Below are positions 8,211-56,143 of a stretch of 61,762 nucleotides of DNA, piece by piece. Both the position numbers and the translations under genes were made by a program. Origin of the DNA: Terriglobales bacterium (GTDB lineage Bacteria > Acidobacteriota > Terriglobia > Bryobacterales > Bryobacteraceae); the NCBI GenBank assembly GCA_027485675.1, contig JAIXQP010000029.1:1-61762 (forward strand), written 5' to 3'. Numbering within the stretch: the stretch's first letter is position 1; each line of letters begins with the position of its first letter. Below the pieces are notes generated by a model that saw only the letters and a list, made by a program, of their open reading frames with translations, made no database searches and was not told where the DNA came from.

Positions 8211-8272
8211 CGCCCTCAGTATACGGCGACGCCCCTTACAGCACCGCATCCAGCTTGCTCCGCAAGCCACCG

Positions 8273-8479
8273 CTACCGCCCGGGCTCAAGAAACTCACGG
8301 CCGGCCGCTTGGTCTTCCCGCTGAATCGCCGCTGCCACGTCGTCCGGCCCGAACGGCGGCGTTCCCGCCGGAACCTGGAACACCGGAAAACCATTCCACT
8401 CCTTCACGGGCATCCGCGCGGCAGCCCGTGCCCGAGCCGAATCGGGATCAACCGCTGCGATTTCCGGTGTGGTGCGCAT
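8273..8479 (-). CDS. Hypothetical small protein, doubtful
   Basis: A 68-residue frame starting MRTTPEIAAV and containing NGFPVFQVPAGTPPFGPDD before an acidic C-terminus. Composition is protein-like and it ends 62 bp before the glycoside hydrolase start on the same strand. The frame stays open upstream to a GTG at 8608, so the start is uncertain. No domain is recognised. It could be a remnant of a small antitoxin-like gene or chance coding in GC-rich DNA. Confidence 0.3.
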   Translation of the reverse strand: MRTTPEIAAVDPDSARARAAARMPVKEWNGFPVFQVPAGTPPFGPDDVAAAIQREDQAAGREFLEPGR

Positions 8480-8646
8480 CGCCCCAGTAGGATGCCGCAG
8501 CAAAGATTCGATGTCAACCAACCGCCGCCGCCCTCCCCTCGCAAACCCTCTTCCCAGCCCATTCCAGAAATTATCTCCCTTGTTTTCAACACGAACCAAC
8601 CACCCCACCCCCCCAATCCCTTGACGCGACCCCTATAGTGAAACCA

Positions 8647-8685
8647 GGAAAGCCCGCTGCGCCCATCCGGCCAGCGGGCTTTTCC
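8647..8685 (+). promoter_or_regulatory. Terminator-like hairpin in 5' leader
   Basis: The arm GGAAAGCCCGCTG (8647-8659) pairs with CAGCGGGCTTTTCC (8672-8685) around a 12-nt loop, with one unpaired T. A short T run lies in the right arm. The hairpin ends 24 bp before the ATG at 8710 and just before the ribosome binding site AAGGAG (8696-8701). This position suits an attenuator or mRNA-stabilising leader for the NAR-STGPRT gene better than an upstream gene's terminator, because no gene on this strand ends nearby. Confidence 0.6.
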
Positions 8686-8709
8686 ATTTCCAACCAAGGA
8701 GCCGCATCC

Positions 8710-9438
8710 ATGTCCACGCAACCCCCGGAATTCAACCGCAAAGCCTTCGTCGCCGAATGCCTCGCCACCCTCAGCCAAAAGCTCGCCGCCCAGGCCCCCG
8801 AGGGCGAAGCCACCCGGCGCCAACTCGCCAACCAACAAAACGCCCGCCAATCCACCGGGCCGCGGACCGCCGCCGGCAAAGCCGCCTCCAGCAAAAACCG
8901 CCTCGCCCATGGCCTCTGTTCCTCGGCGCTGCTCGTCGGCGACGAATCGCCGGACGATCTCGCCTCTCTCCGGACCGAGTTCTACCACGCCTACCAGCCC
9001 GCGACCCCGGAAGAACGCATTCTCACCGATCAACTCGTCGAAGCCCAGTGGCGCCTCAATCGCGCCCGCACCGTCGAAGCCAAAACCCAGGACTTCCTCA
9101 TCTTCCAGGCCTTCGAAAACCTGATCGACGACGGCGAGTCCATCCCGTTCTCGACCGGCCAAATGCATGCCGCCTCGCTCTTGCAGTCCGCCAACGAAGC
9201 GGCCTATCGCAACATCCAGCGTTACGTGGCCGCCATCGAACGCAGCCATCAACGGGCTCTCAAAAATCTCCACTACGCCCAGGAAAAGCGCCGGTCCTTG
9301 CCGCCGCCCCCGCCGGAAATCACGGAAACCAAGGTAAAAGCGGCCGCAGCCACCCAAGCGCTACCCGAAGTCGCCTACGTCCCGCCCACAGTGCCAGCCA
9401 CGGACCGCCAGGCCCCCGATTTCGTCAACCGGCCCTGA
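8710..9438 (+). CDS. NAR-STGPRT motif protein, function unknown
   Basis: A 242-residue cytoplasmic protein of a family that recurs many times in acidobacterial genomes. Its hallmark NARQSTGPRTAAGKAASSKN lies at about residues 44-63, followed by HGL. The remainder is mostly helical and charged, ending in a Pro/Ala-rich tail. The ATG at 8710 was chosen because AAGGAG lies 8 bp upstream. An in-frame ATG-less extension back to 8638 would run through the leader hairpin and is not credible. The STGPRT segment is basic and could bind nucleic acid, but no activity is known. Confidence 0.8.
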   Translation: MSTQPPEFNRKAFVAECLATLSQKLAAQAPEGEATRRQLANQQNARQSTGPRTAAGKAASSKNRLAHGLCSSALLVGDESPDDLASLRTEFYHAYQPATPEERILTDQLVEAQWRLNRARTVEAKTQDFLIFQAFENLIDDGESIPFSTGQMHAASLLQSANEAAYRNIQRYVAAIERSHQRALKNLHYAQEKRRSLPPPPPEITETKVKAAAATQALPEVAYVPPTVPATDRQAPDFVNRP

Positions 9439-14407: not shown

Positions 14408-15114
14408 GGCGGCAGCCCGGCCTCCCGGATCTTCCGCTGCGCCGTCTCGAGATCATAGGAGACCCGCAGCAGCCGCACCGTCTTCATCTCCGAGTCGTAA
14501 ATCGCCCCGCCCGCCCGCCAGTCCCCGTCCCGCGGCTGCCCCGCCGAACCCGGATTCACCAGATACCGGTAGTCCGGCGAAAGCTGAAACGTATACTCGC
14601 TCTCGTCCGGAAACGGCGGGCCAATCAGAATCACCTTCCGCTGCTTCAACTGAAAGCCGCCCTGCAGATGCGTGTGGCCGAAGAACGTCAACTCCTGCGT
14701 CGCGGCCTCCATCGCCACCCGCACCTCCGGCCCCTCAATCACGTACTCGTCCTCGTCCCGCGGCGACCCATGCACCACCGCGTAGTCGTCCACCAGCACC
14801 GGCCCCTTCGGCAGCGCCTTCAACCACGCGAAGTTCTCCGCCGTCATCGCGTTCGCGGTCCAGATCGCCGCCCGCTTCGCCAGCGGATTGAAGTCTTCCA
14901 TCGAGTCCAGGCCCGTCGCCACCTTGTCGTGGTTGCCCCGGATCACCACCGCCGCGTTCTCCCGCACCCATTCGATCACCACGTTCGGATCCGCGCCGTA
15001 GCCCACCAGATCCCCGCAGCAGATCACGCGCTCGTACTCGCCGCTGGCCGCCTCCACCACGGCCGTCAGCCCCTCCAGGTTCGCGTGAATATCGCTGATG
15101 ATTAGGTCGCGCAC
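14374..15114 (-). CDS. Metallophosphoesterase (calcineurin-like)
   Basis: A 246-residue cytoplasmic phosphoesterase with all metal-binding motifs of the family: SDIHAN (residues 7-12), GDLVGYG, RGNHDK, VVHGSP and GHTH, expected to hold two metal ions such as Mn or Fe. The subfamily (YfcE/diadenosine-phosphatase-like, with the signature GDLVGYGADPN) is widespread and its physiological substrate varies. The start overlaps the end of the following membrane-bound phosphoesterase by 13 bp, so the two form an operon. Its last codons fall inside the 222-bp duplication described at 13977-14407. Confidence 0.9.
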   Translation of the reverse strand: MRDLIISDIHANLEGLTAVVEAASGEYERVICCGDLVGYGADPNVVIEWVRENAAVVIRGNHDKVATGLDSMEDFNPLAKRAAIWTANAMTAENFAWLKALPKGPVLVDDYAVVHGSPRDEDEYVIEGPEVRVAMEAATQELTFFGHTHLQGGFQLKQRKVILIGPPFPDESEYTFQLSPDYRYLVNPGSAGQPRDGDWRAGGAIYDSEMKTVRLLRVSYDLETAQRKIREAGLPPLLADRLARGY

Positions 15115-16232
15115 AGTTTGATCAAAGCCACTTCCGGCGGCGCTCCAATGCGCGCCGGCACACCCACCGTCCCAATGCCCCGCGTCACAAACAAGTGCGA
15201 CTTCCCTTCTTGATAGTGCCCATAAACATAAGGCGTAAAAAAGCGCGCGAAATTGACATGCTGATGAAGATACTCAACCGTCACCTGTCCGCCGTGCGTA
15301 TGGCCGGCCAGCATCAGATCCCAAGCCTGCGGCGCCGCCACCCGGAAAGCATCCGGGTTGTGCGAAAGCAGCAGGTTAAACGCCCCGCTCTGTTGCAGCC
15401 GCTTGCCGTCCGGCAGATAGTCGCCATGCATCTTTTGGTAATCCACCCCCGCCAGATTCAGCCGCGCCTGGCCAAACCGCAGTTCGCTGTTCTTCCCCCG
15501 CAAGAACCAAATGCCCCGGCGCGCCGCCTCCTCCGTGGCATACTCCTCGCACTGCGCGTAGATCTCATGATTGCCCAGGCAACCGTAAATCCCGGCGTCC
15601 GCCCGCAACTGCGCCAGCTCACTCAGGCAATCATCCAGCGAATCATGCGCCCCGGTAATCAGATCGCCCGTCACCACCGTCAAATGCGGCCGAAACTCAT
15701 TGGCCATCCTCACGGCGCCGGCCAGCGCCTGCCGGTCCAGGTAGATCCCGTAATGGATGTCGCTCACCTGCGCAATGCGCAATCCGTCCAGATCCTTCGG
15801 CAGTCCCTGAATACCCACGGAAACCTCAACCGGCCGGATGTCCCGGCGGCTGATAAACACCCCGTATCCCATCACCATCGCCGGCGCCGCCACCATGGCC
15901 CCCTGCGCCGCCTGCAGCAGCTTACGCCGCGAAGGATCCACCGGCCGGCGGAAGCTCCCCGCCAGCCACCCCATGAACGCCGTCCCGCACGAACACATTC
16001 CCCAGGCAATCGCGCAGCCGCGCGCCCAGCGAACCGCCTCGGTCATCTCCACCCGCTTCCACACCCATTGGATCTCGAACGCCAGCCCCACAATGCCCAC
16101 TAACGCGCTCAAGCCCAGCCCCAGCGCCCGCAACGCCGAACCCTTCCCTACCCGCAGCCACAACAACCAGTGGCAGACTACCACGATCGCCATTCCGACG
16201 AATTCCGGCAGATATTTGATCAGTACCCGCAA
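15102..16232 (-). CDS. Membrane-anchored metallophosphoesterase (YkuE-like)
   Basis: A 376-residue protein with three or four N-terminal membrane segments (residues ~8-130), a Ser-Arg-Arg-Lys-Leu-Leu stretch before the last one, and a C-terminal calcineurin-like domain. Metal ligands are visible in QVSDIHYG, VVTGDLI, CLGNHEIY, LLLSHNPD and LAGHTHGGQ. The family includes phosphodiesterases acting on lipid headgroups such as UDP-diacylglucosamine relatives. The catalytic part should face outside the cytoplasm if the topology reading is right. It is the first gene of a two-gene minus-strand operon and is divergent from the fumarylacetoacetase-family gene. Confidence 0.88.
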   Translation of the reverse strand: MRVLIKYLPEFVGMAIVVVCHWLLWLRVGKGSALRALGLGLSALVGIVGLAFEIQWVWKRVEMTEAVRWARGCAIAWGMCSCGTAFMGWLAGSFRRPVDPSRRKLLQAAQGAMVAAPAMVMGYGVFISRRDIRPVEVSVGIQGLPKDLDGLRIAQVSDIHYGIYLDRQALAGAVRMANEFRPHLTVVTGDLITGAHDSLDDCLSELAQLRADAGIYGCLGNHEIYAQCEEYATEEAARRGIWFLRGKNSELRFGQARLNLAGVDYQKMHGDYLPDGKRLQQSGAFNLLLSHNPDAFRVAAPQAWDLMLAGHTHGGQVTVEYLHQHVNFARFFTPYVYGHYQEGKSHLFVTRGIGTVGVPARIGAPPEVALIKLCAT

Positions 16233-43067: not shown

Positions 43068-43177
43068 GACCGACGAGTATATCGTTCGTCCGGGCGCCCG
43101 GTAGAATGTGAAAACTTCAGATTTTTTTGACCAGAAGTCCGGCTTTGATTCGCTTCCAGATTTTAGGGAGGTAACGG
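43068..43177. promoter_or_regulatory. Divergent promoter region of the sigma/NACHT unit
   Basis: This 110-bp gap separates the leftward serine hydrolase gene from the rightward sigma-like gene. An AT-rich run (AACTTCAGATTTTTTTGACC, around 43110-43131) stands out. A very strong ribosome binding site AGGGAGGT (43165-43172) precedes the ATG at 43178 by 5 bp. No clear -35/-10 pair or operator could be fixed. Confidence 0.45.
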
Positions 43178-44044
43178 ATGGGATTTATTGAGGACCTGCA
43201 ATGGCTCGTTCCGGCGGACGCCATGTTTCGTGAGGCGCTTCATCAGTGCGCCCGCGAGATCTGGTTTGCCGAGCCGCGCGGACGGGTGGAGGAGTCGGCG
43301 AAAATTCTGACGGGGCGTGTGATGAAGTGCCTTGACCCGGTGGAGGCGATGGCTGATGGGATGGACGCGTGGATCCTGGGGGTGGTGGCGAGGAACAATG
43401 GTCGGGGACAGAAGCCGCTACCTCCGCCAAGCTGCGGTTTCTCAGGGCTCGCACCGGAGACGGCGGCAGGTCTCGCGGCGGCGCAGGCGGCGTACCGTAC
43501 CGGTCTGGCGCTGAGGGTCGATCTGCTGGAGATGGGGGATCCGGAGCTGACGGAATGGATGCAACGGAATCTGCGCAAGGCTCCCTCCAAGTCCAAGGAC
43601 AAGTTGCGCGCAAAGTTTGGCCGCTTTAGCGATCTGATCGACGACGCGGTGTCTGAGGTGGTCGTGAAGCTCTATGTGGCACTCACTAATGGCATGGTCG
43701 TGGCGAGTTGGAAGGAACTGGACGCCAAGCTGGTTGCGTGGGCCACCAACTGGTTGAAGGACGAAGCCCGCAGGCGACGTCTCGTTCCGCTGGATGAGCA
43801 GGTGGCCAACCGTTACGGGGAGGCGCCGCGATGGGACGCTGAGCTTGATCTGCAAAAGCTCATTGAAATGCTGGATACTGCCCGGCTGCGGGATGCCTTG
43901 CGCCGTCGCTTGGAGGGTGACAAGCCGTGCTCGATTCGCGAGGACATGCAACTCAGCGAGGCGGAATGGAAGCGATGCCGCAAAGCGTTCGCGAAGTTAC
44001 GAGACTCCCTGGGTGGAGACGATATCAGTGGGAAGGAGAAGTAA
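43178..44044 (+). CDS. Sigma-70-like protein of an unusual NACHT-linked unit
   Basis: A 288-residue soluble protein. Its middle (~residues 150-210) reads like sigma region 2: LIDDAVSEVVVKLYVALTN followed by LDAKLVAWATNWLKDEARRRRLVPLDE, the helices that contact core polymerase and the -10 element. The C-terminus (~230-280) has charged helices that could serve as region 4. The N-terminal ~130 residues match nothing recognised. It is longer than a normal ECF sigma. The next gene codes for a zinc-finger anti-sigma-like protein, then comes a NACHT NTPase, which suggests a regulatory pair driving the unit. The role is inferred. Confidence 0.6.
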   Translation: MGFIEDLQWLVPADAMFREALHQCAREIWFAEPRGRVEESAKILTGRVMKCLDPVEAMADGMDAWILGVVARNNGRGQKPLPPPSCGFSGLAPETAAGLAAAQAAYRTGLALRVDLLEMGDPELTEWMQRNLRKAPSKSKDKLRAKFGRFSDLIDDAVSEVVVKLYVALTNGMVVASWKELDAKLVAWATNWLKDEARRRRLVPLDEQVANRYGEAPRWDAELDLQKLIEMLDTARLRDALRRRLEGDKPCSIREDMQLSEAEWKRCRKAFAKLRDSLGGDDISGKEK

Positions 44045-44045
44045 G

Positions 44046-44642
44046 ATGAACGGGAAACCGCAACTGCACGTGGTCAAGGCGGCGGAATGCCCGTCCGACG
44101 CGAGGATTGTTCGAGGCTTGGCTGTCGGCTGGCCCGAAGAGCAAAAGGAGCATGTCAGATCGTGCGATCACTGCCAGGAGAGAATTCTCGAGGCGTGGGG
44201 TGGGGCGGGGCCGCAGCCGGTCATTGAGCGGCAGTACCGACGCGAGCCGGAGGCCAGCCTGTATGGCAAGGCGATCCGCCGATTCTGGAAGCAAGACAAG
44301 AGTTGGGGGTCGATCCAGTTGCGTTTGGCGGCGGCGGAAGAGCACAAGCCGTTGGAGGCGGCCGATGTCCGGGACTGGCAGGGACGCCCGGTGGAACTGG
44401 TTCTCCAGCAGGTCATGGCCGGAGTTTTGGATGTCTTCGTCTTTGGTGAGAAGCTACCCGATCAACTCATTGTCCAACTCAGTTCTTCCTCCGTTAGCGA
44501 TGATATCGTTGAAGTTCCGGTGGTGGCAGGGCCTGTGTTTTCGGGACGGGTGAGGCTGTCGGGTGTGGTGCCGGAGAAGGAGGAAGCAAAGGTAGTGGGC
44601 TGGTTGGCGGAGGGAACGCTGCAGTGGACGATAGCCGAATAG
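44046..44642 (+). CDS. Zinc-finger anti-sigma-like protein
   Basis: A 198-residue protein. Near the N-terminus, His36-x3-Cys40-x2-Cys43 (HVRSCDHC) fits the zinc-binding anti-sigma (ZAS) signature. The rest is helical up to ~120 and then beta-rich (LIVQLSSSSVSDDIVEVPVV, GRVRLSGVVPEKEEAKV), without a membrane segment. The ATG (44046) is one base after the upstream stop, and the 3' end overlaps the NACHT gene by 19 bp, so translation is coupled. It probably binds the sigma-like protein and transmits a signal from the NTPase. This is inference from motif and position. Confidence 0.65.
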   Translation: MNGKPQLHVVKAAECPSDARIVRGLAVGWPEEQKEHVRSCDHCQERILEAWGGAGPQPVIERQYRREPEASLYGKAIRRFWKQDKSWGSIQLRLAAAEEHKPLEAADVRDWQGRPVELVLQQVMAGVLDVFVFGEKLPDQLIVQLSSSSVSDDIVEVPVVAGPVFSGRVRLSGVVPEKEEAKVVGWLAEGTLQWTIAE

Positions 44643-47600
44643 CCGGGCAACTTCCCGAACAACTGCGGTTTGGATTGCCTACCGGGCCGGGCGATCGGTT
44701 CTGGGTCGACTCGCGGCCACTCCTCCAGAAAGGCGGCCCCGGCCAGGAGATGGACTGGGAGCGATGGTATGAGGGCCTTCTGGGGCTAACTGCTGGGGAT
44801 CTGCTCAACCTGTTGTACAAAGGCAACGACCCGCAACGCATTCTCTCCAACCTGAAGACCGCTGCCGATACCGCCAGGCTGGTCCGGGATGCCCCGGATG
44901 GGTTGCCGGGCGAGCTGACGCCGCTCGAAGCGGAATGGTGCCGCCTCTGGCGGGGCGAAAAGCCCGGGGGGCAGCAGGTTCAAGTTCGGGTCATCGCGCT
45001 CATCGGCAGCAAGGCGATCGAGGTCACCCTTCATCTTTGGCAGGTGGAGGGTCCTCCGGAGATCCATTGCCTGCCCGCCTACTGTTTGGCCCCCTACGGA
45101 GCGGAACTGCATGAAGGGATGACGGCTCTGGCGGCCTGCTCCCTTTTGGGACTGGCGGGGACCGTGTTTTGGGCGGTGACGGTGGGAGGCTTGACGGCGC
45201 CGAACGTGGAGGGAAGATCGTTCACCGGGGCGGCCGCGGTGGGAATTCGGCTGTTGCAACGGAAGGAAACCGCTGATCCGCAGTGCGCCGTCGTGGGCCG
45301 ATATGAACCGGAAGTGGGTTGGGGTCCGCTGGAGACGGATCATGCCAAAGGAGAGCACTGGCTGAAGGGAGCGGCGGAACGGCGGGTGATTGTAGCTCGG
45401 CGGCCGCCCGAAGCAGCGGGGAGGGGGTGGGTGGCGTGCCGCAGTTTGGAAGAAGCGGTAGAGCGGACGAGTTCGGCTGGCGGGCTGTCCGACTATCTGA
45501 AGTGGATCGTCGAGCAGACCAAGATGGTCGGGTCTAATAAGGATCGGGATGACATCCGGGCGCGAATGCCGCTGGAGTCGGCCTACGTTTCGCTTTCGGC
45601 CACGAAGTATCTGCCGGAAGAACATATTGCCAGAGAAGCCAAGACGCAGCAGGGGATCGAACGAGGGGGTTACTGGGAGCGTGATTGGGATCAGCGGAAT
45701 TGGGGTAAAGAAGACGATCTGGAAAGCGTCATTGCGCAAAATCCTCTTGTCCTGATTCTGGGCGATCCCGGATCCGGCAAGACCACACTGTGCCGCTACG
45801 CCGCACTGGTCCATGCGCGCACGGCTCTGAAGTCCGGCGTGGGGCAAGTCGTTCCCGGCGGGAACGACGGAGGAACCACGGGAACGGCCAGGGTTCCCGT
45901 TCTGGTCCGGCTCTCCGCTTTCGAGGACTGGAACCGCAAGTATCACCGGGGTTTGAGCGCATACATCTGGCAGTGCTCTAGCTTCGAACCTGTCGCAAAC
46001 CGTCGAGCTCTGGACCAGAAACGTTGGGCGAAACTCTACCAGTCACAGGAAGAAAGAGGCCAAGTGCTTTTTCTCTTCGATGGACTGGATGAGATCGCCG
46101 ATCTCGAGAGACGTATTGATATTCGCGGTCAATTGCAAAATTTCCTTCGGAAGCACGTTGGCGAAGGGCGCAACCGGGCCATCGTCACCAGTCGCATCGC
46201 CGGCTACGGCCAAGCCCCCCTGATTGTGAATGGACTTACCGAGTTTCGCGTCCGGCCGATGAAACCTGCGCAGGTTCAGGCATTCCTGCAGGCGTGGGCG
46301 GATACGGATGGCGAGGAGGGGCTCCACGCTCGCCTGACGCAAGAGATCTTGGAGGGGAGGTGCCGGGGCTTGGAGGCCTTATGCGAAACTCCCCTGCTGC
46401 TGCACATGGTCGCCAGCGAGGTTAAGGTCTCCGGGAGACTGCCAAACACGCGAGCGCAACTCTACGATGCCGTGGTTCGACGGGCCATCGGCCGGCGGAT
46501 GAGCGACTCGCCGGAGCGGGTGAGCGGCAAGCCGGAGCGGGTGATGGCCGTTCTGGCCGATGTGGGCTTCGGGATGCTGCGCGACTATTCGGCGGGCACC
46601 ATGACATGGGAGCAGTTTCGCGCGGCGGTGGGGGAGAGTCTTGAACGACGCTTTGGTGAGTATCACGCGGAGGCCATGGCCGGGCAACTGCTCGCGCACT
46701 CTGGTCTGCTGCATGCGCGCGGCCAGGGCCGGGTCGCCTTTGTACACCTCACCTTTCAAGAGTTCTTTGCTGGCTTGCACCTGTTGATTCGAGCCTCGGG
46801 GGCACTCACCAGTCTTGACCAGCCTGAGGCCCAACCCATTCATGACCGGCTGGGCGATCCGCGGTGGGCGATAGCCACTGGGTTCGCGCTCACCATGCCG
46901 CCCGTGCTGGGTTGGCCGGACCGGCGATACGAGGACTTCTTGCTGCGGGTGCTCCGTCATGACCAGGACTTCCCTTTTGCCTATCTGAAACTGGCGAGCA
47001 ACCTGACTGACCTGGGGAAGTCCCAGCCGGAGCTCTTTGACCTTCTCTTCGAGCGGTCGCTGGCGATTCTGGAACTGGGTGCAGGTTCCGGTTTAGTCAA
47101 ATCGGCGCGACGGGTGTTGCAAGCCCTGGTGGATTCCCAACGTACCCGCTTTGTTGCGCTGGCGCGGGCCGAACTCCGGAAAGGGGAGGCTACCGCGATA
47201 GCGCTGGCGCAGCAATTGCCCGAACTTGCGTTTGCTTCACAGGAATTAGTTGAGGCCTTGTCCGTCGCTGCCCAGCGAGATACGGAGGCGACCGGGTGGC
47301 ACTACCAACGGGCGTTGCAGAGGATGTTGAGTGAGGCGGAGCGCGGCATGCTGTTGGGAACAGAAAATGCTGTCGCCAGCGTCGCGCTTTCGCTGCCGCT
47401 TGTAAGGGCCGGAATGTCTCATCCTGGCTGGCTCGAATTCCTGAAAGGGAACGACAAGATTCAGCGCTTCCTAATCGCCGTTTATGGCGGACTAGCTGAC
47501 TTGGGCTTCGGTACACTGCTCGCCGAAAGGCGCCAACTCTACCGGAGATTCCGCGACGGCGATGGGGAGGCCAAGGAGCGAGTGGATCAGTCGATCGAAC

Positions 47601-50600
47601 CAATTCGGGAAAAGCTGGAACTGGTTGCCCCCGAGTTCCGCTGGGAATGGATCGTTCGGGATTCGCCCCTGTCCTCCCACGTGCAAGCACTGTTGGCGAG
47701 CGGCGCCAGCGAGTTGGAATGGCTGAATCAACTCGAAGCGCTCTGGAAGAAGAACTTCAACCAAAGGCAGGATCTGCGTGGCCGGGAACTTCTGATCGAT
47801 CTGGCGATCGGGCTGACGGCCTGTGGTGAAGAGGGCCGGCTTGGGGAGTTGCCCAGGGACCTGACGGCCGCGGTTCGGGAGCGGCTTGGCGGAACCATCG
47901 AAATGCTGCGCGAGGCCTACCTGCGCGCGATTCCGGCGGGCCGGGCGTTCGGATTCCCCGAGACCAATACGCTGCTGGAGGAACTGGCGAAGGCGGGGTC
48001 TGATCCGGATGAGGGGGCGGCCATCGTGGAGTCGCTCCTCATCCTGCAACGCCGCATGGGAGGTCCACCGATCGATACCTGCGGGCTGCCCGGGGATAAA
48101 GACGGAATTCGGTGGCGGCTTCCCGCCTGGGAATGGAGTACGCGCCACTACCCCACCACGACCGATCCCCGCATGGGAACAGCAGTGCTCTTGGATAAGA
48201 ATCTGAATCAGATTGCCCCGAGCGGCGACTTCCTGGCGCAGGCTCTGGCCCACCGGTTCGACGATCCGGAGTCGCCGGAGCCCTTAGAAGCGGACTTTCC
48301 GTTTGCCGTCGCGGAAGCCCTGCTCGAATTGGTGAACAAGGATCAGTTGCTTTTCGTGGGGATTTTTCCGCGCCTCTGGGAGCACTTCAGCGCGGATCCC
48401 GAATGGCGGACTCTACTGCTAGCGACCTGGCGGTTTGCCCGGCGGCGCGACAGCACGATACCAAAGGACGCGCTGTCGGACACCTCCGTTTGGGCGGAAG
48501 CCGCATCCAGCGAGCGGCCCCCATCGTGGCCGCCCACGAAGGGTGATCGATTTGACGATTATCGGCGAGCCCGGTTCGGCCAATTCTGCGCCACCCATGA
48601 GTTGCGATCCGAGAGCCGGGTTGCCCCGGCGCAAGACAGCATCGATCTTTGGCGCCTGCTGTTTCCGGTAGCATTGCGGACGCGCTTCGCCGGGCCCACG
48701 CTCTATGCTCTCGGCGCTTTTCTTGATGGGTGGGAGCCGAGGTTCGGAAGAGATGCGTTGCGTATGGCAGTGGAAGTTATCTGGCACAATCCGTACGATG
48801 AGATCCAACGCCCGGGGATCTTCGCGGCGTTGCGTAAGGAGCGGGCCGCATACTGGCAACTCCTGGTGCCTGCACTGTGCAAAGCCGGCGATTCGTGGTG
48901 GGTCGCTCGCCAGCTTCGGCGGGTTCGGCTTCGGCTGGAAGGGGCGCCAGAAGCCATCGATACCTTCGAACGGATTACCGCTGGCTGGGATCAGCGCAGG
49001 TCCGCATGGGCCAACCGCCGTGATGGCAGGGTTCTGGGGCCGATTGACGCCCTGCCCGCCGTCGTCCGTGCCTGCGCCAATCTACTGGACATGCAGGACC
49101 GCTTACGAGAGCCCGGCCGGCGCCTTGCCTTTCGTGTGCCGGAGTCATCCTTGGTCCTGGATGCCGAACAAATCAGTGCGATTCGGAGGGAGTGGCAGAA
49201 GGGACATCATGATGAGGTCTTGGCCGTCCTGCGGCAATGCCAAGAAGTGGCGCCGCAAAGCCTCCCGGCTCTACGGGCCTGTTGGAGCGAACTGACCGGA
49301 CGAGCTCGCCAACTCGCCGGCCTGTTGCTCTTGGCCGCAGGTGACTGGAATCCTGAGCGAACCGAAGACGCACTGGAGCTTTTCGAGTCGGGAGACGAAC
49401 GGGAAAGGCTACTCGCGGAGCTGGTTCTGACCGCGTACGCCGGGGCGGAAAGATTAAATCGAAACTACGAACTCGATGTTTCGCTGGTCGGCGAGCCGAC
49501 CCTTCAGTTCTTGTGGGAGGTCCGCAGTCCCCAAGACGGCGGTAAATGGTCGTATCGCACCAAGCAGACGGTAAGGTGGCTGATTGGTCGCCTCTGCTTG
49601 GATAGCCCGGATATGGCGCACCAACTCCTCAAAAAGGGTTTCGGCGGGCTAAGTAGGATAGAGAAAATCAGCGTTGGTACTTGGTTCTACTTCGAGAGTG
49701 TATTGCGCCCAAAGTCGAGTGCGCCCCAGGAGACCCAGATCATTGTCCGAATTCTCGCGCGGATGGCCGAGAGTGGCGGCCGAGAGAGTTGCCTGTTTGC
49801 TGCGGATGCCTGCGGACTGCTGGCTGCTAGGATCTGCGACGGCAAAGAGGTAGGCGAGGCCATCAAGGCGATCGGATACCTGGCCGACGCCGAGAAGGAT
49901 TGGCCGGAACTCATCGCGCTTCGCGAGCCTTGCCAAGCCGCCGGTGAGGCTGCCGAGGTCGAGTTCTGGCGCGCGGTCGGGCGGCTGGGCCACCGTGGGG
50001 CAAATTTCGAAGACTTGCCGCCGCTTGCGGAAGGCGTGGGCCCCTCCGTGCGTCGCGCCATGCTCGCTGCCCGGTTGCGCTGCTTTCCAGGGTCGGTTTC
50101 GAATTCCGAGTTCGAAGATTGGGAGCTGATGCTCGAATGGACCGCTGGGTATCTCATTAATGATGAAGCCTTGCTGGCAATCGCCAAGGCACTGATACAA
50201 GGCGAAAGCTGCGTCGTGGAAGCACGAATCCGGCGCTTGGTCGAAGAAATCGAGAACACCGAGGAGCAACTCGATGATCCGGACGACCCGCTCCTGCCGG
50301 TGCTCCGAGTGCTCTCCCTCGTGGTCACCCAGTTGCCGGAGATGGTTTTGAAGGCGATCGGCGGAGGCCAGGAAGCGTGGATCGACCGCATGGCGCTGCT
50401 CGGCGAGCGCGGCTACGCGTATCCCGTCCGCCAAAGTGCGGGAACCCTGTTGGGCTACCTCGGCATCTGCCGGCCAACTACGGTGAAGGCATGGCGCAGC
50501 CTGTTCTGCGACGTAGCGCTCGTCGCCGACCGCGCCATCGAAGCGGTCGAACAGATCCGGACGATTGACCCGGAAGCCGTCGAACCGCTGCTGGAGATCA

Positions 50601-50884
50601 TTCGCACCGGGCCGCCGGCCAGCGTTGTCGCGATGGGTCGCCTGACGCTTCGCTTGGCCCGTAGCAAGAACTTCGACATGAGCCAGCGCTCCATCGTGCC
50701 GCGGCTGGTAGCCACCCTCGACCAACGCCGGCGAATGAGCCGCCAGGAGATGGTCTATCAAAGGCCCGACTTCGTCCACCAGGCCAGCCGCCAGATTGTT
50801 CCCGTCGCGAAGGGACTGCTCTCCGGCCAGTTAGGCGAGCTGCTGGCGGCCATCTACACCGATAGCCAGGAGAATACCCGCTAG
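44624..50884 (+). CDS. Lon-like protease / NACHT NTPase, STAND family
   Basis: A 2086-residue protein with GTG start and GAGGG upstream. Residues ~120-270 resemble a Lon S16 protease domain: Ser199 in EGRSFTGAAAVGI and Lys242 in HAKGEHWLKGA lie 43 residues apart, the spacing of Ser679 and Lys722 in E. coli Lon, and a VIV strand follows Lys as in Lon. Residues ~370-560 are a NACHT domain with Walker A GDPGSGKTT (380-388) and Walker B LFLFDGLDEI (482-491). The remaining ~1400 residues are predicted helical repeats, a plausible ligand sensor. NACHT STAND proteins detect phage components and activate an N-terminal effector. The stop overlaps the convergent ATPase gene by CTAG. Confidence 0.82.
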   Translation: MDDSRIAGQLPEQLRFGLPTGPGDRFWVDSRPLLQKGGPGQEMDWERWYEGLLGLTAGDLLNLLYKGNDPQRILSNLKTAADTARLVRDAPDGLPGELTPLEAEWCRLWRGEKPGGQQVQVRVIALIGSKAIEVTLHLWQVEGPPEIHCLPAYCLAPYGAELHEGMTALAACSLLGLAGTVFWAVTVGGLTAPNVEGRSFTGAAAVGIRLLQRKETADPQCAVVGRYEPEVGWGPLETDHAKGEHWLKGAAERRVIVARRPPEAAGRGWVACRSLEEAVERTSSAGGLSDYLKWIVEQTKMVGSNKDRDDIRARMPLESAYVSLSATKYLPEEHIAREAKTQQGIERGGYWERDWDQRNWGKEDDLESVIAQNPLVLILGDPGSGKTTLCRYAALVHARTALKSGVGQVVPGGNDGGTTGTARVPVLVRLSAFEDWNRKYHRGLSAYIWQCSSFEPVANRRALDQKRWAKLYQSQEERGQVLFLFDGLDEIADLERRIDIRGQLQNFLRKHVGEGRNRAIVTSRIAGYGQAPLIVNGLTEFRVRPMKPAQVQAFLQAWADTDGEEGLHARLTQEILEGRCRGLEALCETPLLLHMVASEVKVSGRLPNTRAQLYDAVVRRAIGRRMSDSPERVSGKPERVMAVLADVGFGMLRDYSAGTMTWEQFRAAVGESLERRFGEYHAEAMAGQLLAHSGLLHARGQGRVAFVHLTFQEFFAGLHLLIRASGALTSLDQPEAQPIHDRLGDPRWAIATGFALTMPPVLGWPDRRYEDFLLRVLRHDQDFPFAYLKLASNLTDLGKSQPELFDLLFERSLAILELGAGSGLVKSARRVLQALVDSQRTRFVALARAELRKGEATAIALAQQLPELAFASQELVEALSVAAQRDTEATGWHYQRALQRMLSEAERGMLLGTENAVASVALSLPLVRAGMSHPGWLEFLKGNDKIQRFLIAVYGGLADLGFGTLLAERRQLYRRFRDGDGEAKERVDQSIEPIREKLELVAPEFRWEWIVRDSPLSSHVQALLASGASELEWLNQLEALWKKNFNQRQDLRGRELLIDLAIGLTACGEEGRLGELPRDLTAAVRERLGGTIEMLREAYLRAIPAGRAFGFPETNTLLEELAKAGSDPDEGAAIVESLLILQRRMGGPPIDTCGLPGDKDGIRWRLPAWEWSTRHYPTTTDPRMGTAVLLDKNLNQIAPSGDFLAQALAHRFDDPESPEPLEADFPFAVAEALLELVNKDQLLFVGIFPRLWEHFSADPEWRTLLLATWRFARRRDSTIPKDALSDTSVWAEAASSERPPSWPPTKGDRFDDYRRARFGQFCATHELRSESRVAPAQDSIDLWRLLFPVALRTRFAGPTLYALGAFLDGWEPRFGRDALRMAVEVIWHNPYDEIQRPGIFAALRKERAAYWQLLVPALCKAGDSWWVARQLRRVRLRLEGAPEAIDTFERITAGWDQRRSAWANRRDGRVLGPIDALPAVVRACANLLDMQDRLREPGRRLAFRVPESSLVLDAEQISAIRREWQKGHHDEVLAVLRQCQEVAPQSLPALRACWSELTGRARQLAGLLLLAAGDWNPERTEDALELFESGDERERLLAELVLTAYAGAERLNRNYELDVSLVGEPTLQFLWEVRSPQDGGKWSYRTKQTVRWLIGRLCLDSPDMAHQLLKKGFGGLSRIEKISVGTWFYFESVLRPKSSAPQETQIIVRILARMAESGGRESCLFAADACGLLAARICDGKEVGEAIKAIGYLADAEKDWPELIALREPCQAAGEAAEVEFWRAVGRLGHRGANFEDLPPLAEGVGPSVRRAMLAARLRCFPGSVSNSEFEDWELMLEWTAGYLINDEALLAIAKALIQGESCVVEARIRRLVEEIENTEEQLDDPDDPLLPVLRVLSLVVTQLPEMVLKAIGGGQEAWIDRMALLGERGYAYPVRQSAGTLLGYLGICRPTTVKAWRSLFCDVALVADRAIEAVEQIRTIDPEAVEPLLEIIRTGPPASVVAMGRLTLRLARSKNFDMSQRSIVPRLVATLDQRRRMSRQEMVYQRPDFVHQASRQIVPVAKGLLSGQLGELLAAIYTDSQENTR

Positions 50885-52389
50885 GGGAGCGGGCCCAGCG
50901 GGACCCTGGTCCGTCCCCACTTGCCGTCCGCGAGCAAATAGAAGGCTTCGCCCACGTCTAACGATGACGCTCCCCGCAAGTCGCACACGTGCGGCCAATT
51001 CGGCAAGGCCGGGGGCGGTAACAGCGCACTCAACGTCCCGTTGGTCGACGCCTCGGTCGAGCGAAAGAACAGTTTCGTCCCGCAGTTGGCCAGGATGATC
51101 CGCAACACGGCCTCGGCCTGGTCCTCCCCGCCATGCTGGCGCATCAGCCGGTAAAGGAGTGATGCCGTCGACTGGGTCGCCAGCACCGCTCCGGCCCGGT
51201 ACGCCCGGCCCACGTCCAGAAAATGCGCCTCGGAAGCTTTCGGCGCACTGTGAAAGAAGCGTTGGGCTTCGTCGCAGATGTAGGCCACCCCTCGGATGGG
51301 CGACTTGCCGGAAAGGGACAGCCGGAAGAAGACCGACTTCAGCGCCCGGCCAATTGTCTCCTCCGTCTCCTTTTCATGCACCCCGCCGGCCGGCGCGTAC
51401 AGCACCGCGTGACCTTCCGCGATCAGCCGCGCCAACGACAAGGTACGCTCCGGGGGCGGCGGCTCGTAGGGACTTAGCCACAGACAACTCGTCAATGCCG
51501 GATCCACAAGATGCAGGCTAATGCTCTGGTAGACGATCACCAGACTGGTCGCTGTGTTTTCGGCGAGATGTTCGAGCGACTGCAGACAAGTCGTTAAGCT
51601 CCGGGGCACACCCGCCGCGGCGCACCGTTCGAGGTAGGTCGATACCAGTCCGTTTCGTCCTCCCGCGTGCGAGCCGCAGGCGGCCATGAACCGGACATGG
51701 ACCTGGAATGGATCGGCCGGGTCGAACGCCGGCAACTCGTCCTGGTGGCTGATCAGTCCTTCGCGCAACGCCTGGTGCCGGATCCCTTCCCAAAAGGAAT
51801 GGATTCCTCCCGGGCTTTGCTTGGACAGGAACTTGTCCACCGCGATAAAGCCGGTCGCCGTATGCTTGCAGGTCTCTGACCAGAACGGATCCCGGCCTCC
51901 CGCTTCGTGCGCGGCATAATCGCTTAAGCCGAAGAGCGCTTCGGCCGCCGTACTCGCGTCCAGATTGTCGAGGTCCATCCCTTCGAACAGATGGACATAC
52001 CGGTTGTGTCCGGGGCCGAAGTGGTAGAGTTCGCGGTCCTGGCACCTCACCGCCTCCGCTTCGGCGGTCTCGGCGAGCTCCTGTTTCGGATCCACGATCA
52101 TGACGGCGTGCCGCAAGTGGCTGACGGCCGGAAGTGGATCGTTCGACGGCCGGTTAGCCTGGCTCCATGTCAGGGCTGACCGCTCCGGATACCGAAGCGA
52201 TGCGCGCAACAGCGGCCGGATACAAGACTCAGTTTTGCCGCTGCCGGAGCCGCCGATCGAAAACGTGTGGCGGGCGAACTCCACTGCCGGCAGTTGCTCC
52301 CGGCCGAAATTGCGAAATTCCGGAACCAGAAGTGGAGGGTCATAAGGCGCGTAGGGGCGCGGTGTAGTTTCCTGCTGTTTGGGGGGCAT
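50881..52389 (-). CDS. VirD4/TraG-like ATPase without transfer genes
   Basis: A 502-residue protein with the motifs of type IV coupling ATPases: Walker A SIGGSGSGKTE (Lys52), Walker B VAYICDEAQRF (~375) and sensor AVLATQSTASLL (~400). No N-terminal membrane segments are present, unlike VirD4. No relaxase or type IV secretion gene lies nearby. It is the last gene of a minus-strand unit and starts 4 bp after the ClpP-like gene. Soluble TraG-like ATPases occur in defence islands, and pumping of DNA or protein is a guess. It ends 4 bp into the NACHT gene. Confidence 0.8.
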   Translation of the reverse strand: MPPKQQETTPRPYAPYDPPLLVPEFRNFGREQLPAVEFARHTFSIGGSGSGKTESCIRPLLRASLRYPERSALTWSQANRPSNDPLPAVSHLRHAVMIVDPKQELAETAEAEAVRCQDRELYHFGPGHNRYVHLFEGMDLDNLDASTAAEALFGLSDYAAHEAGGRDPFWSETCKHTATGFIAVDKFLSKQSPGGIHSFWEGIRHQALREGLISHQDELPAFDPADPFQVHVRFMAACGSHAGGRNGLVSTYLERCAAAGVPRSLTTCLQSLEHLAENTATSLVIVYQSISLHLVDPALTSCLWLSPYEPPPPERTLSLARLIAEGHAVLYAPAGGVHEKETEETIGRALKSVFFRLSLSGKSPIRGVAYICDEAQRFFHSAPKASEAHFLDVGRAYRAGAVLATQSTASLLYRLMRQHGGEDQAEAVLRIILANCGTKLFFRSTEASTNGTLSALLPPPALPNWPHVCDLRGASSLDVGEAFYLLADGKWGRTRVPLGPLP

Positions 52390-52393
52390 GGAT

Positions 52394-53125
52394 CTAGAAA
52401 ACTCCTTCGAGATGGGGATGGGGGCCAGTCAGAACGGCGTCGACAAGCCGCAGTTCCAGCGCCTCGGCTGCGGTGATTGGCGCGTCCCGGCGGAACAGTT
52501 CGACGTAGGTCGCCTCCGTGAGGGCCCCCGGGGGCAAGGGAGGCCTCGGGGAGTGGAGAGGCGCGCCGGAGTTAACCGCCAGCGAGAGGGGCGCGATGTC
52601 CATCGCGGCCGGATGGGCCGGCTCGCCGGCGTCGGAGAGGACCGGACTCACGCCCGCCGCACGGGCGGCGAGCAGCCGCGGGTATCGCGCCGTGAACCGG
52701 ATGGCCTCCGCCTGCAGCAAAGGCAGGTGCTCGGCCAGAAGCAAGGTGTCTTTGGGAATCAGGTGCCGCGAGTTATGAAACAGAAGGCTGACGTTCCCGA
52801 TGGCGAAACGCTGCCCGGGGTCGCCGAGGGAGACGAGCAGCGCCGCGGCGCTGTGGGCACGGTGGAGTGCGGATGTCGAAACCATCACGCCGCGCTGCCG
52901 GGCGTGATGAAGAAACGTTTCGAGCATCTCTACCGCGGCCAGATCTCCTCCCGCCGAGTTGGTGACGTGCAGGTGTAGTCTTTCGTAGCGATAGTACGCC
53001 AGCGCCTGCGCTACGTCCGGCAAGACCTGTTGGATATTGGGGGCGGACAGGTCCCCGTCGAAGAGGACGACGCAACGCTCCGCGTGCAGGCGAAGACGCA
53101 CTTGGCTTTTGGATTCTTCAGGCAT
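52394..53125 (-). CDS. ClpP-like serine protease
   Basis: A 243-residue protein of the crotonase/ClpP fold. Elements match ClpP: NSAGGD (as NSPGGS, residues 56-61), the catalytic serine elbow RAHSAAALLV with Ser92, and His117 in LLFHNS. The 25-residue Ser-His spacing equals that of ClpP (Ser97/His122 in E. coli numbering). The C-terminal ~90 residues are an extension with Pro-rich linker not found in housekeeping ClpP, and no ClpX/ClpA partner is here. It may use the neighbouring ATPase as its unfoldase. The position between the M50 and ATPase genes suggests a dedicated complex. Confidence 0.8.
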   Translation of the reverse strand: MPEESKSQVRLRLHAERCVVLFDGDLSAPNIQQVLPDVAQALAYYRYERLHLHVTNSAGGDLAAVEMLETFLHHARQRGVMVSTSALHRAHSAAALLVSLGDPGQRFAIGNVSLLFHNSRHLIPKDTLLLAEHLPLLQAEAIRFTARYPRLLAARAAGVSPVLSDAGEPAHPAAMDIAPLSLAVNSGAPLHSPRPPLPPGALTEATYVELFRRDAPITAAEALELRLVDAVLTGPHPHLEGVF

Positions 53126-53140
53126 CTTCCTGGGAGCGAA

Positions 53141-53788
53141 TCAGAACAGGAAATCTGACAAGAGCCAGAGCACATTCACCGCGATAATCAAGGCGGCCCC
53201 ACATTGTGACCATGCCCGCGACCACCACCGTTCGTCGATGAATCGCGGCGCCGCTCGCTGCAGCGCACGCCCTGGCTCTTCCAACAGAACTCCGCCGTCG
53301 AGGGTCGGGAGAGGCAACAGATTGAACACCCCGACGCCCAGGTTGAAATCGGCGAACAGGTGCAGGCTGGCCATGATCCCCTGCTGATAGGCATCTGCAG
53401 CGAGCTGCACCAACGCCAGAGGGCCACAGCAGGATCCCCCCAGACTTCCTGGGTCTGGGACGAGGGCATACAACACGCCTGCCAGCGCCAGATTTGCGGC
53501 AGGCCCCGCCAAAGCTACGCTGACCCGCTGTACCGCCGTCGACCTGGGACCCCGGCGGTAGTAGACATAACCCATGAGCGGGAAAAGTTGAAAGTGCCAG
53601 AAGGACTCCTGCCAACGCATCCGGAAGAAGGAGGGGCCCACCCCGATCACGACGCGCGGGGCCGAAAATCCTAACCCGCGCGCGCAAGCCCAGTGCGCGG
53701 CCTCATGCACCAACACGACGCCGAACAGGAGCACCCAGGCCAAAATCAGGGAAAGATAGCAGTCGCGAACCCAATCGTCAGGCCGCAT
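53141..53788 (-). CDS. M50 site-2 protease family protein
   Basis: A 215-residue multi-pass membrane metalloprotease. Zinc ligands are His28 and His32 of HEAAH in the first membrane helix and the Asp in NLLPLPTLDGG (the NPDG-like motif). Members cut transmembrane helices, classically of anti-sigma factors, in regulated intramembrane proteolysis. The start ATG at 53788 overlaps the GNAT stop by 11 bp; a TTG further upstream is less likely. It is the second gene of the four-gene unit. Confidence 0.85.
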   Translation of the reverse strand: MRPDDWVRDCYLSLILAWVLLFGVVLVHEAAHWACARGLGFSAPRVVIGVGPSFFRMRWQESFWHFQLFPLMGYVYYRRGPRSTAVQRVSVALAGPAANLALAGVLYALVPDPGSLGGSCCGPLALVQLAADAYQQGIMASLHLFADFNLGVGVFNLLPLPTLDGGVLLEEPGRALQRAAPRFIDERWWSRAWSQCGAALIIAVNVLWLLSDFLF

Positions 53789-54347
53789 GGTGGGCCGCCT
53801 TGGCAACTTGGGTCTGGGGTTCGCCCGGCAAACAGCGGAAGAACACGATCTGCGGCCCCGTCAAGGGATGATCGAACACGCGCGTGCAGGGAACCCAGCC
53901 GAGTCGCTGATACAGCGGCCGCAGGTCGGGCCGGGAATGGCAGACGCCGATCGTCAGGTTGAATCGGCGGCCGATTCGATACGCCTCGGCCAGCATGGCG
54001 GGAAAAATCGTCCGGCCGCGGTCCACTTCACTGACGACACACCGCGAGACGTAGCCAAACTCGTGCTCGCGCAGAATCGACTTCAGAAACCCAGGCAAAG
54101 TCGCGCGCAACCAAGGCGGCAACCGATTCACGTCCAGCCGCAATGCTCCAGCCAACTCGGGACCTCGATGAACCACGAGGTGCATGCTGTCCCGGTCAGC
54201 CGGATCGATGAGGCTTCGTTGGGCGATGGCGTGCGCCGGAGCGGGCAAGCCACACCCTGCAATCAGGTGTTCAAAACGGAAACGGCCGACCTCCTCGATA
54301 ACATCCGGGTGGTTGGTCCAACGCATGGTGACGGGTGGTTGTTCCAT
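53778..54347 (-). CDS. GNAT / N-acyl-amino-acid-synthase-like acyltransferase
   Basis: A 189-residue protein (MEQPPVTMRWT start). The fold pattern, FRFEHLIAGCGL at the front and GYVSRCVVSEVDRGRTIFPAMLAEAYRIGRRF then LYQRLGWVPCTR at the back, is that of the GNAT branch containing autoinducer and N-acyl-tyrosine synthases. Such enzymes attach an acyl chain to an amino acid or make an acyl signal. GAGGAG lies upstream of the ATG at 54347, which was preferred over a TTG/ATG extension to 54653 that would run through the divergent promoter. First gene of the minus-strand unit. Confidence 0.75.
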   Translation of the reverse strand: MEQPPVTMRWTNHPDVIEEVGRFRFEHLIAGCGLPAPAHAIAQRSLIDPADRDSMHLVVHRGPELAGALRLDVNRLPPWLRATLPGFLKSILREHEFGYVSRCVVSEVDRGRTIFPAMLAEAYRIGRRFNLTIGVCHSRPDLRPLYQRLGWVPCTRVFDHPLTGPQIVFFRCLPGEPQTQVAKAAHHAA

Positions 54348-54468
54348 GATGTGCTCCTCTTCCTGAAGGAGCGATTCCGGCCCATCGTTCTGACCGAAAA
54401 GTTTTCTCGCTCCCGGCGGAAAAGCCGCGCCGGATTCGCTGCCATTGCAGCAAGGAGAGAAAGCGACG
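54348..54468. promoter_or_regulatory. Divergent promoter region between GNAT and membrane-protein genes
   Basis: A 121-bp gap with start codons on both sides. GAGGAG (minus strand) and AAGGAG (54452-54457, plus strand) serve the two genes. The gap must carry promoters for both directions. No obvious operator was seen. Confidence 0.5.
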
Positions 54469-56088
54469 ATGAAGATCTGGTTCCGTATCTTGACGCCGGT
54501 GGTTCTGCTGAGCGGCGTGGTCACGTATGGAGTGTGGGCGGAGAGCGTCACTGCGGCTGCGGGAGGCGCGGCCCTGCTCATTCTGTATGGTGCTATGGGT
54601 TGGAGGACCGCCGTGGCCGCGAGGAGACAACTCCCTGGTCCCCGCGTGTTCACTCTCTATGACCGGCGGGGCCGCCGCGCGTTGCGGCTGGAACTCGCCA
54701 GCTTGCAGCCACAAGCGACGAAGCGGCCGCGACCTCTCAGCGGGGGCATTTTGCAGAGCATCTGGTCGGAATTGGCCGGCCTAGGTCCGGAGGCCAAGGC
54801 ATACGAGCATCCCGAGATGCTCAAGTTTCTGCATCACGCTGAATATGGCGAATTCATCCTGGAACGCCTGGCCGCGTTACACCGCATTACCCCGGCCGTA
54901 CGAGCGGCCCTGGAATCGATGAGCGTCGGACAGTTCAAAGAGTTCGCCGAATCCCTCCATCTTGCGAAGGAGGCGGGCGGCGCGGGCTGGAGCCACATGG
55001 CCGCGGAGGTTGCCGCCTTGGCGAACGGCGCCGAGGTGGGCGACAGTGCCGATGGGATTGCCGAGGCGTTCCATGTTCCCGATGTTATCGTTTCCCCCCT
55101 CAGTGCGACCCTCACGGTGCTGAAGTACACGACGCTGGCCAGCGAAGGCATGCACCCGGGGCGGGCGACCACCTACGCGGCCGCCGAAATCACGGCCCGC
55201 ACCATTGGAACCACAGTTTTCGCGAAGGTGGGCGCGGCGATAGGCACCGTTCTCGCCGGGCCCTTCGGTACCGTATTCGGAATGATCGTCGGCGGATGGG
55301 CCGGCTCGCGGGGCGGCAAGGAGGCCGCCAACGTGGTCAAGCGGTCGGTGGGACTCGACCCCGCCCGGCGCGAGTTCCAACTGAAAAAGCGCGCGTTGGA
55401 GCAGCGTTTGCGACAGGAGGAGGCGGAGCGCCAACCGGAACTCGACCGGATTTACGCCTCCCAGCAACAGACTTACTTGGGCTGGCAGCGCCAAGCCTGG
55501 AAGGAACAAATCGGCTCCCTATCCCACCTGCAAGACCGTTGGTTGCAAGCCGCCTGGGAGTTCCTCGAAACGCTGCCGGAACGATTGAATGACGCGGCGC
55601 TGAACATTGCGCGGGAGCATCTGGTTACCGCTCCGGCCTTTGGCCGCCAGTTCGGCTGGTCAGTTGGGTGTGTGCCGGCCGTGGCGGAGCGCTTGGCGCA
55701 CCTCTGGCTCAGTGATGCCCGCCGGCGGCTCGACGCTGTGCAGGAACGTGCCGCCACCGCGCTCGCCGAAGCCCGAGCGGAACGCAATCCAGCCGCAGGC
55801 CTCCTGCTGGTACAGCGTGTGCTGGCGTCGGTCGAACTGGAGGATGCGAGCATCGGACAAGCGATCGATTCGCTGAAGAACGAGGAGCGGGCGGTCCGTG
55901 CTGCCGCGGAAACCCAGCTCCGGCAGCATCACGAAGTCCTGTTGCGATTGCAGGCCAAGGCCCGCCATGCCTATCTCGAAGCCTGCACTCCCATCCTGTG
56001 TGAGATCGCCCAAGCGGTCGAGTGGGAGCGGGAAGAGGCTGAGCGCGCCAAAGCGAGACTGGATCTGGAAGAACGGGCCTGTGCTTAG
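54469..56088 (+). CDS. Membrane protein with glycine-zipper segment and coiled coil
   Basis: A 539-residue protein. Two membrane helices lie at ~5-45. A helical cytoplasmic part follows, then a Gly-rich hydrophobic stretch at ~245-285 (GAAIGTVLAGPFGTVFGMIV and GGWAGSRGG) with glycine-zipper spacing as in pore-forming or membrane-inserting segments. The C-terminal ~240 residues are charged coiled coil. The ATG has AAGGAG upstream. It is divergent from the GNAT/M50/ClpP/ATPase unit and may be its membrane effector or the substrate of the M50 protease. No known family was recognised. Confidence 0.75.
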   Translation: MKIWFRILTPVVLLSGVVTYGVWAESVTAAAGGAALLILYGAMGWRTAVAARRQLPGPRVFTLYDRRGRRALRLELASLQPQATKRPRPLSGGILQSIWSELAGLGPEAKAYEHPEMLKFLHHAEYGEFILERLAALHRITPAVRAALESMSVGQFKEFAESLHLAKEAGGAGWSHMAAEVAALANGAEVGDSADGIAEAFHVPDVIVSPLSATLTVLKYTTLASEGMHPGRATTYAAAEITARTIGTTVFAKVGAAIGTVLAGPFGTVFGMIVGGWAGSRGGKEAANVVKRSVGLDPARREFQLKKRALEQRLRQEEAERQPELDRIYASQQQTYLGWQRQAWKEQIGSLSHLQDRWLQAAWEFLETLPERLNDAALNIAREHLVTAPAFGRQFGWSVGCVPAVAERLAHLWLSDARRRLDAVQERAATALAEARAERNPAAGLLLVQRVLASVELEDASIGQAIDSLKNEERAVRAAAETQLRQHHEVLLRLQAKARHAYLEACTPILCEIAQAVEWEREEAERAKARLDLEERACA

Positions 56089-56143
56089 CCCAGCTCCCCC
56101 CCCCTTTCCGCCGTGTGACGGAAGTGTTACTGTCGCGATCACT
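56089..56143. other. Intergenic gap
   Basis: 55 bp between the membrane-protein gene and the EF-G gene, with a C-rich run and a weak 5-bp hairpin (TTCCG...CGGAA). No convincing terminator was seen. Confidence 0.3.

Follow-up and report, generated by a model that had tools for sequence, protein, structure and literature searches.

The window analysed here, a stretch of 61,762 nucleotides from a Terriglobales bacterium (Acidobacteriota; contig JAIXQP010000029.1), encodes on its minus strand a ClpP-like peptidase of family S14 and, directly after it, a soluble VirD4/TraG-like ATPase (Table 1). These two genes constitute a conserved unit. They are adjacent at five of five loci, namely the window and the loci L048, L054, L069 and L070, and the last four sit in three genomes of one betaproteobacterial family. 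The pairing is thus conserved across two distant lineages, with intact active-site motifs and a patchy distribution. An earlier note on this DNA, made from the sequence alone, had joined the two genes with an M50-type peptidase gene and a GNAT gene in a four-gene unit; this larger arrangement is a local assembly. With moderate confidence, and on the basis of sequence comparisons, we read the pair as a two-gene mobile defence module, in which the ATPase would control a dedicated ClpP-family serine peptidase effector.

Distribution of the gene pair

The partner gene turned up unprompted at all four betaproteobacterial loci, L048 having been found through its ATPase and L054, L069 and L070 through their ClpP-like proteins. 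A scan of the genome_contigs collection with a pattern alignment based on the ATPase gave at least one confirmed relative among the best 594 candidate stretches. This relative is encoded on contig CAILZB010000112.1 of the uncultured beta proteobacterium YR2_bin-1147 (29% identity over residues 9-501; E = 4e-42), where the gene next to the ATPase gene is ClpP-like. The same genome (G492) holds a second, diverged ATPase and ClpP-like pair. A ClpP-family profile run against 399 genomes of the betaproteobacterial family matched at 14 places in 13 genomes. Four of these matches were strong (E from 6.6e-40 to 9.5e-144), and an ATPase gene adjoins all four; two of them lie in G492 and had served to build the profile, and the other two, one in G1070 and one in G990, were new (L069 and L070). 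Four of the ten weaker places were read (L071-L074), three being housekeeping clpP genes and the other, L071, a lone ClpP-like gene. In the remaining six, which were not inspected, the matches span only residues 50-118, within open frames of 208-229 amino acids (aa).

A profile built from the ATPases of all five pairs, for which the three best candidates per genome were scored and weak lone ATPases could be missed, revealed no lone strong ATPase in the 399 genomes. The four strong ATPase places in this search are rows of the profile and were found by construction, and the one weak match (G942; E = 1.3e-12) belongs to a coupling protein encoded near a relaxase gene. Across the order, a sample of 399 genomes contained the family in G492 only. 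With the window ATPase as query, 1 of 101 relatives and, within the phylum, 1 of 396 genomes gave a match. The ClpP query matched four of the 101 relatives, corresponding to the window's own protein and three housekeeping clpP genes, and the window pair was not found in 100 relatives. The three housekeeping matches (L004-L006), all of them weak, lie in tig-clpP-clpX-lon loci of Acidobacteriota and were rejected as relatives for that reason.

The earlier note had linked the ATPase with the ClpP-like protein, and these searches bear out that they form a pair. The two did not occur independently in most genomes, which the note had named as the contrary outcome, although the weaker ClpP-like protein of L071 does stand alone. 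Moreover, when 84 open reading frames (ORFs) at and beside the five pairs, the pair genes among them, were compared (E 0.01), no families other than those of the ATPase and the ClpP-like protein were common to the loci. That the two are chance neighbours with unrelated functions is hardly credible in view of the adjacency at every locus and the unprompted partners at four of them, and nothing was found in its favour.

No such pair was found among 72,556 plasmids with four ClpP-like and four ATPase queries. Seven of these queries had no match, and ten weak matches to the other (P0007), of which three were inspected, are annotated as coupling proteins. Single-sequence scans gave no match with P0002 in genome_contigs or with P0001 and P0002 in viral_contigs. 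The latter collection also contained no match to alignments A1, A4, A5, A6 and A7 or to one DNA pattern, and phage records contained none to P0002 or P0007.

The ClpP-like peptidase

All five ATPase-linked ClpP-like proteins pass the Pfam CLP_protease cut-off of 20.2 bits, with scores of 28.8 for the window protein and 42.5, 23.4, 47.3 and 32.6 for the others. According to the alignment, the Ser/His/Asp triad is kept in all five (Ser92, His117 and Asp214 in the window protein). The spacing between Ser and His is 25, as in true ClpP, whereas that between His and Asp is 97, 112, 117, 106 and 114 compared with 49-50 in housekeeping ClpP, so that the region between them is 47-68 residues longer. 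The N-terminal segment VPMVxEQ..RGERxYDIYSRLL, which forms the axial gate loops of housekeeping ClpP, is present in all seven aligned housekeeping ClpPs and missing in all five ATPase-linked members. Therefore, docking of the ClpX or ClpA type cannot be assumed for this family. In the tree, a branch with support of 100/99 splits the ATPase-linked proteins from housekeeping ClpP, and the lone L071 protein was placed between the two groups with weak support. The housekeeping clpP of the source genome is a separate gene on another contig (C39). Judged by these comparisons, the peptidase is a member of the S14/ClpP family without one ClpP feature, the N-terminal segment.

These features bear on the alternative, in line with the earlier note's suggestion that the ATPase may feed the ClpP-like chamber, that a ring of the VirD4-like ATPase unfolds proteins and threads them into such a chamber. 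The two would then act as an energy-dependent protease whose motor is not of the AAA+ class. The pairing is consistent with such an arrangement, as are the ClpP-family match with its complete triad and the solubility of the ATPase, and coupling proteins act on protein-DNA substrates. We nevertheless consider it unlikely, because the missing N-terminal segment and the enlarged His-Asp region disfavour ClpX-like docking, the ClpP partners known to us are AAA+ proteins, and the structure models of the pair proteins were too low in confidence for use.

The VirD4/TraG-like ATPase

In addition to the Walker A and Walker B motifs (Table 1), the window ATPase carries an ATQS motif at residues 404-407. 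It is 27-30% identical to the ATPases of the other loci. Its matches to the TrwB, TraG and T4SS-DNA_transf families are all below the Pfam cut-off, and the ATPase of L069 is above the cut-off for T4SS-DNA_transf (28.2 vs 20.1). ATPases of the VirD4/TraG kind presumably belong to the FtsK-HerA superfamily; for HerA (DUF87), Pfam gave no match for the window ATPase and a match below the cut-off for that of L069. Four coupling proteins, two of them near-identical, were used as outgroup (from plasmid pRA2, an Aquicella plasmid, a Xanthomonas citri plasmid and genome G942). The family profile gave 583-901 bits for the five pair ATPases and 68-71 bits for the coupling proteins, the high scores of the members being due in part to the construction of the profile from the same five ATPases. 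A branch with full support sets the five pair ATPases apart in the tree. At a hydropathy threshold of 1.6, none of the five has a transmembrane segment (maxima of 1.01-1.53), in contrast to all four outgroup proteins (1.86-3.16). On these profile matches, the ATPase appears to be kin of type IV coupling proteins, among them those of mobilizable plasmids.

Two other candidate assignments were discarded. An RNA helicase identity, indicated by PDB profile matches of the ATPases, was set aside because the matches were limited to the P-loop region. As a link to defence, the similarity of the ATPases to mad8 in PADLOC was dropped, since ordinary coupling proteins match this model equally.

Genomic setting of the pair

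The pair of L069 lies in an island with an integrase gene and an AlpA gene, between type II CBASS genes (cyclase, E1-E2, JAB and SAVED-HNH endonuclease) and BREX genes (BrxL, PglX, BrxC, BrxB and BrxA). Genes for a tyrosine integrase and a YhaV toxin are near L054, together with what look by eye to be transposase genes of the IS66 type; integrases are thus near two of the five loci. PADLOC covered the neighbours of the pairs at the loci other than L054. Judged by the neighbouring genes, one of the five loci has a clear defence setting, and that of the window is suggestive.

As the earlier note had stated, neither a relaxase nor a Clp unfoldase showed up near the window genes: none of 52 ORFs chosen across the whole window matched ClpX or four relaxases of two kinds (E 0.01), and a Pfam scan of ten flanking genes detected neither kind of protein. 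Across the five neighbourhoods, the same threshold gave no match to ClpX or to these four relaxases, the only relaxase queries, in 208 ORFs. As a positive control, the same queries recovered all four control relaxases, and all four outgroup coupling proteins have a relaxase nearby.

Another possible role is one in mobile elements, where the pair, with no relaxase of its own, would be left over from conjugation or mobilization or be an accessory to it, and the peptidase would process or destroy coupling or entry proteins, amounting to entry exclusion or anti-conjugation. The closest outside relatives of the ATPase are indeed coupling proteins of relaxase-bearing elements, and the two integrases agree with such a role. 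However, the lack of relaxase matches around the pairs, the lack of a membrane segment in their ATPases and the lack of any pair among the plasmids searched make this role improbable.

Two further genes were observed at L048. About 2.5 kb past the ClpP-like gene, an ORF (14704-16110) encodes a Peptidase M41 (FtsH protease) domain with no AAA+ match. A 648-aa protein encoded divergently from the pair (7314-9260) has a C-terminal helix-turn-helix resembling sigma-70 region 4, below the cut-off.

Local genes at the window site

The four genes are positioned as the earlier note had described, in the minus-strand order GNAT, M50, ClpP-like and ATPase spanning 50881-54347, and their HExxH/DG, Ser/His and Walker A/B motifs are intact. 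The GNAT and M50 genes overlap by 11 bp, and gaps of 15 bp and 4 bp precede the ClpP-like and ATPase genes, respectively.

Table 1 Features of the window around the ATPase and ClpP-like genes. Positions are those of the window.
Feature	Position	Strand	Remark
VirD4/TraG-like soluble ATPase, 502 aa	50881..52389	-	Core gene 1 of conserved pair
Walker A GGSGSGKT, ATPase residues 46-53	52231..52254	-	From sequence
Walker B AYICDE (ATPase residues 369-374), also cited as YICDEA	51268..51285	-	From sequence
ClpP-like (S14) peptidase, 243 aa	52394..53125	-	Core gene 2 of conserved pair
Ser92, predicted catalytic	52850..52852	-	Alignment to housekeeping ClpP
His117, predicted catalytic	52775..52777	-	Alignment to housekeeping ClpP
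Asp214, predicted catalytic	52484..52486	-	Alignment; Asp in 5/5 ATPase-linked members
M50-type (site-2 protease-like) membrane peptidase, 215 aa from ATG, no PDZ match	53141..53788	-	Local gene, outside pair
FeeM-like GNAT acyltransferase, 189 aa from ATG	53778..54347	-	Local gene; no homologue in 18 congeners
Segment of about 13 kb not found between serine hydrolase and EF-G genes of congener G001	43096..56098	.	
NACHT STAND protein, 2086 aa, convergent with ATPase	44624..50884	+	Neighbour, outside pair

The M50 protein has HEAAH and LDGG motifs and scores 106.8 bits against the Pfam M50 cut-off of 27.2; its strongest match to the RseP model lies in the C-terminal part. The FeeM-like match of the GNAT protein (26.3) is just under the cut-off of 27. 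M50 proteins of the window type occurred in 2 of 61 genomes, and the GNAT protein in 1 of 19 genomes of the genus. A comparison of the 84 ORFs around the pairs (E 0.01) found neither gene at the other four loci. In congener G001, the EF-G gene directly adjoins the serine hydrolase gene, which marks the left border of the region, and neither the M50 gene nor the insert is present; the window therefore has about 13 kb that is not in G001. In congener G017, a single M50 gene with 57% identity and the same orientation lies between the serine hydrolase and EF-G genes (L032, 4739-5386). In congeners G016 and G009, the EF-G gene itself is absent from this site.

In the window, the pair shares one operon with the M50 and GNAT genes. 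The tight spacing of the four genes would suit a local role in stress-related or regulatory proteolysis, in which M50, GNAT, ATPase and ClpP-like proteins act jointly. Such a joint role is very unlikely, being opposed by the other four loci, which have neither M50 nor GNAT, and by the site in G017, with M50 alone, and in G001, with none. The lone M50 gene in G017 shows that M50 can exist alone at this site and that the four genes are not one travelling unit. The four-gene unit therefore did not hold beyond the window. The further suggestion that the M50 enzyme releases a membrane-held regulator gained no comparative support either, because M50 is not at the other loci and stands alone in the sister genome.

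Where the NACHT and ATPase genes meet, their stop codons share 4 bp (50881-50884) within the palindrome CTAG. The NACHT protein matched the antiphage EruA model weakly (33.6 bits vs a cut-off of 1000). It was rejected as part of the unit and is taken as a mere neighbour, because its relatives in G019 and G017 sit in other surroundings. It is preceded by genes for proteins of 288 aa and 198 aa, and the three form a convergent unit of their own (43178-50884). Both smaller proteins are without a Pfam match, and the 198-aa protein carries a cysteine-histidine motif (SCDHC); by eye, the two resemble sigma/anti-sigma partners. On the other side, divergent from the GNAT gene, a 539-aa protein with a glycine-rich hydrophobic stretch is encoded (54469-56088), with no family above the cut-off.

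Possible role of the pair

A pumping-type ATPase and a hydrolase encoded side by side, rare and patchily distributed and found once amid a defence island, most closely resemble ATPase-effector defence pairs such as DUF4297-HerA. The patchiness shows in the window pair, which lies within the segment not in G001 and was not found in the relatives searched, and in L054, which is near an integrase gene and a YhaV toxin gene. In the mobile defence module that we favour, the ATPase would most likely assemble as a ring, which may recognise or travel along invading DNA or a phage-made structure. It would thereby activate the peptidase, possibly through a physical complex, gating or targeting. The activated peptidase would then cleave proteins, and infection would be halted, perhaps as abortive infection. 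A more specific proposal is that the two proteins make up a compartmental protease for defence, which a non-AAA+ ATPase of the DNA-pump type drives, gates or targets; we put this forward tentatively, with less confidence than the module as such.

Several observations weigh against the defence module. A clear defence island was seen at only one of the five loci; no recognised defence gene was found within the scanned portion of L048, and L070 has one coiled-coil neighbour with a weak ZorA match (16 bits, E 0.0009). The gene order also varies, the ClpP-like gene being first in the window and the ATPase gene first at the other four loci. The window ATPase is without a stretch of 150-200 residues found ahead of Walker A in the ATPases of the other loci. 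The ATPases of L069 and L070 have a Pfam DEAD-helicase match above the cut-off in the P-loop region, so that the ATPase assignment depends partly on weak matches. The structure models of the pair proteins had mean pLDDT values of 46.9 and 32.1. Finally, the 406-aa ClpP-like protein of L071 (8413-9633) has no adjoining ATPase, which disfavours a strict pairing of every ClpP-like protein; it has Glu at the catalytic Asp position and a His-Asp region of 263 residues. By eye, the neighbours of L071 include a transposase-like ORF and urease-like genes.

Comparison with known systems

For neither protein did a dedicated family come up, either among Pfam and PADLOC models in the proteins scanned from the five loci or, within the window, among NCBIfam models. 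No description of an ATPase and ClpP-like pair was found among the papers listed from the literature searched, which lies mostly outside subscription journals. A protease of the kind outlined above could represent either a DNA-triggered protease or an energy-dependent protease of a new class, with no precedent found in that literature; this is a possibility that we regard as somewhat doubtful.

The window M50 protein resembles RseP and other site-2 proteases in its HExxH and DG motifs and differs from them in its length of 215 aa, in having no PDZ match and in not being tied to the pair. The pair ATPases are related to type IV coupling proteins, which reach 68-71 bits on the pair-family profile. 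Unlike the outgroup coupling proteins, they have no membrane segment, no relaxase of the kind found there nearby and a linked ClpP-like gene. Coupling proteins usually have an N-terminal transmembrane domain. A class without it exists, according to one report (PMC7431656).

The peptidase shares with the ClpP of ClpX and ClpA systems the ClpP-family match, the Ser/His/Asp triad and the Ser-His spacing of 25. It differs from it in its adjacent gene, which encodes a VirD4/TraG-like ATPase with no ClpX match nearby, and in its separate branch in the tree. Compared with housekeeping ClpP, the N-terminal segment is missing and the His-Asp spacing is 97-117 instead of 49-50. Energy-dependent proteases are known with AAA+ motors. 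If our reading is true, a ClpP-family peptidase tied by gene order to a DNA-translocase-type ATPase in two distant lineages could break this rule.

To our knowledge, the effectors of ATPase-effector defence pairs are nucleases and NAD-degrading enzymes. Besides DUF4297-HerA, HerA-SIR2 presumably represents another two-gene defence system of the HerA-effector type. In DUF4297-HerA, a hexameric ATPase and its effector are reported to form a large complex, in which each activates the other (PMC11291478). Like such systems, the pair has a pumping-type ATPase gene directly beside one for a catalytic effector (5/5 loci), and it lies in a defence island at one locus. Unlike them, its ATPase is without a DUF87 match above the cut-off (window and L069), and its effector is a ClpP-family peptidase and not a nuclease or NADase. 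Alternatively, then, a proteolytic effector would join the ATPase-effector defence pairs if the reading is true. The pair is small, with only two genes, and the inactivating mutants are obvious, which makes these ideas directly testable.

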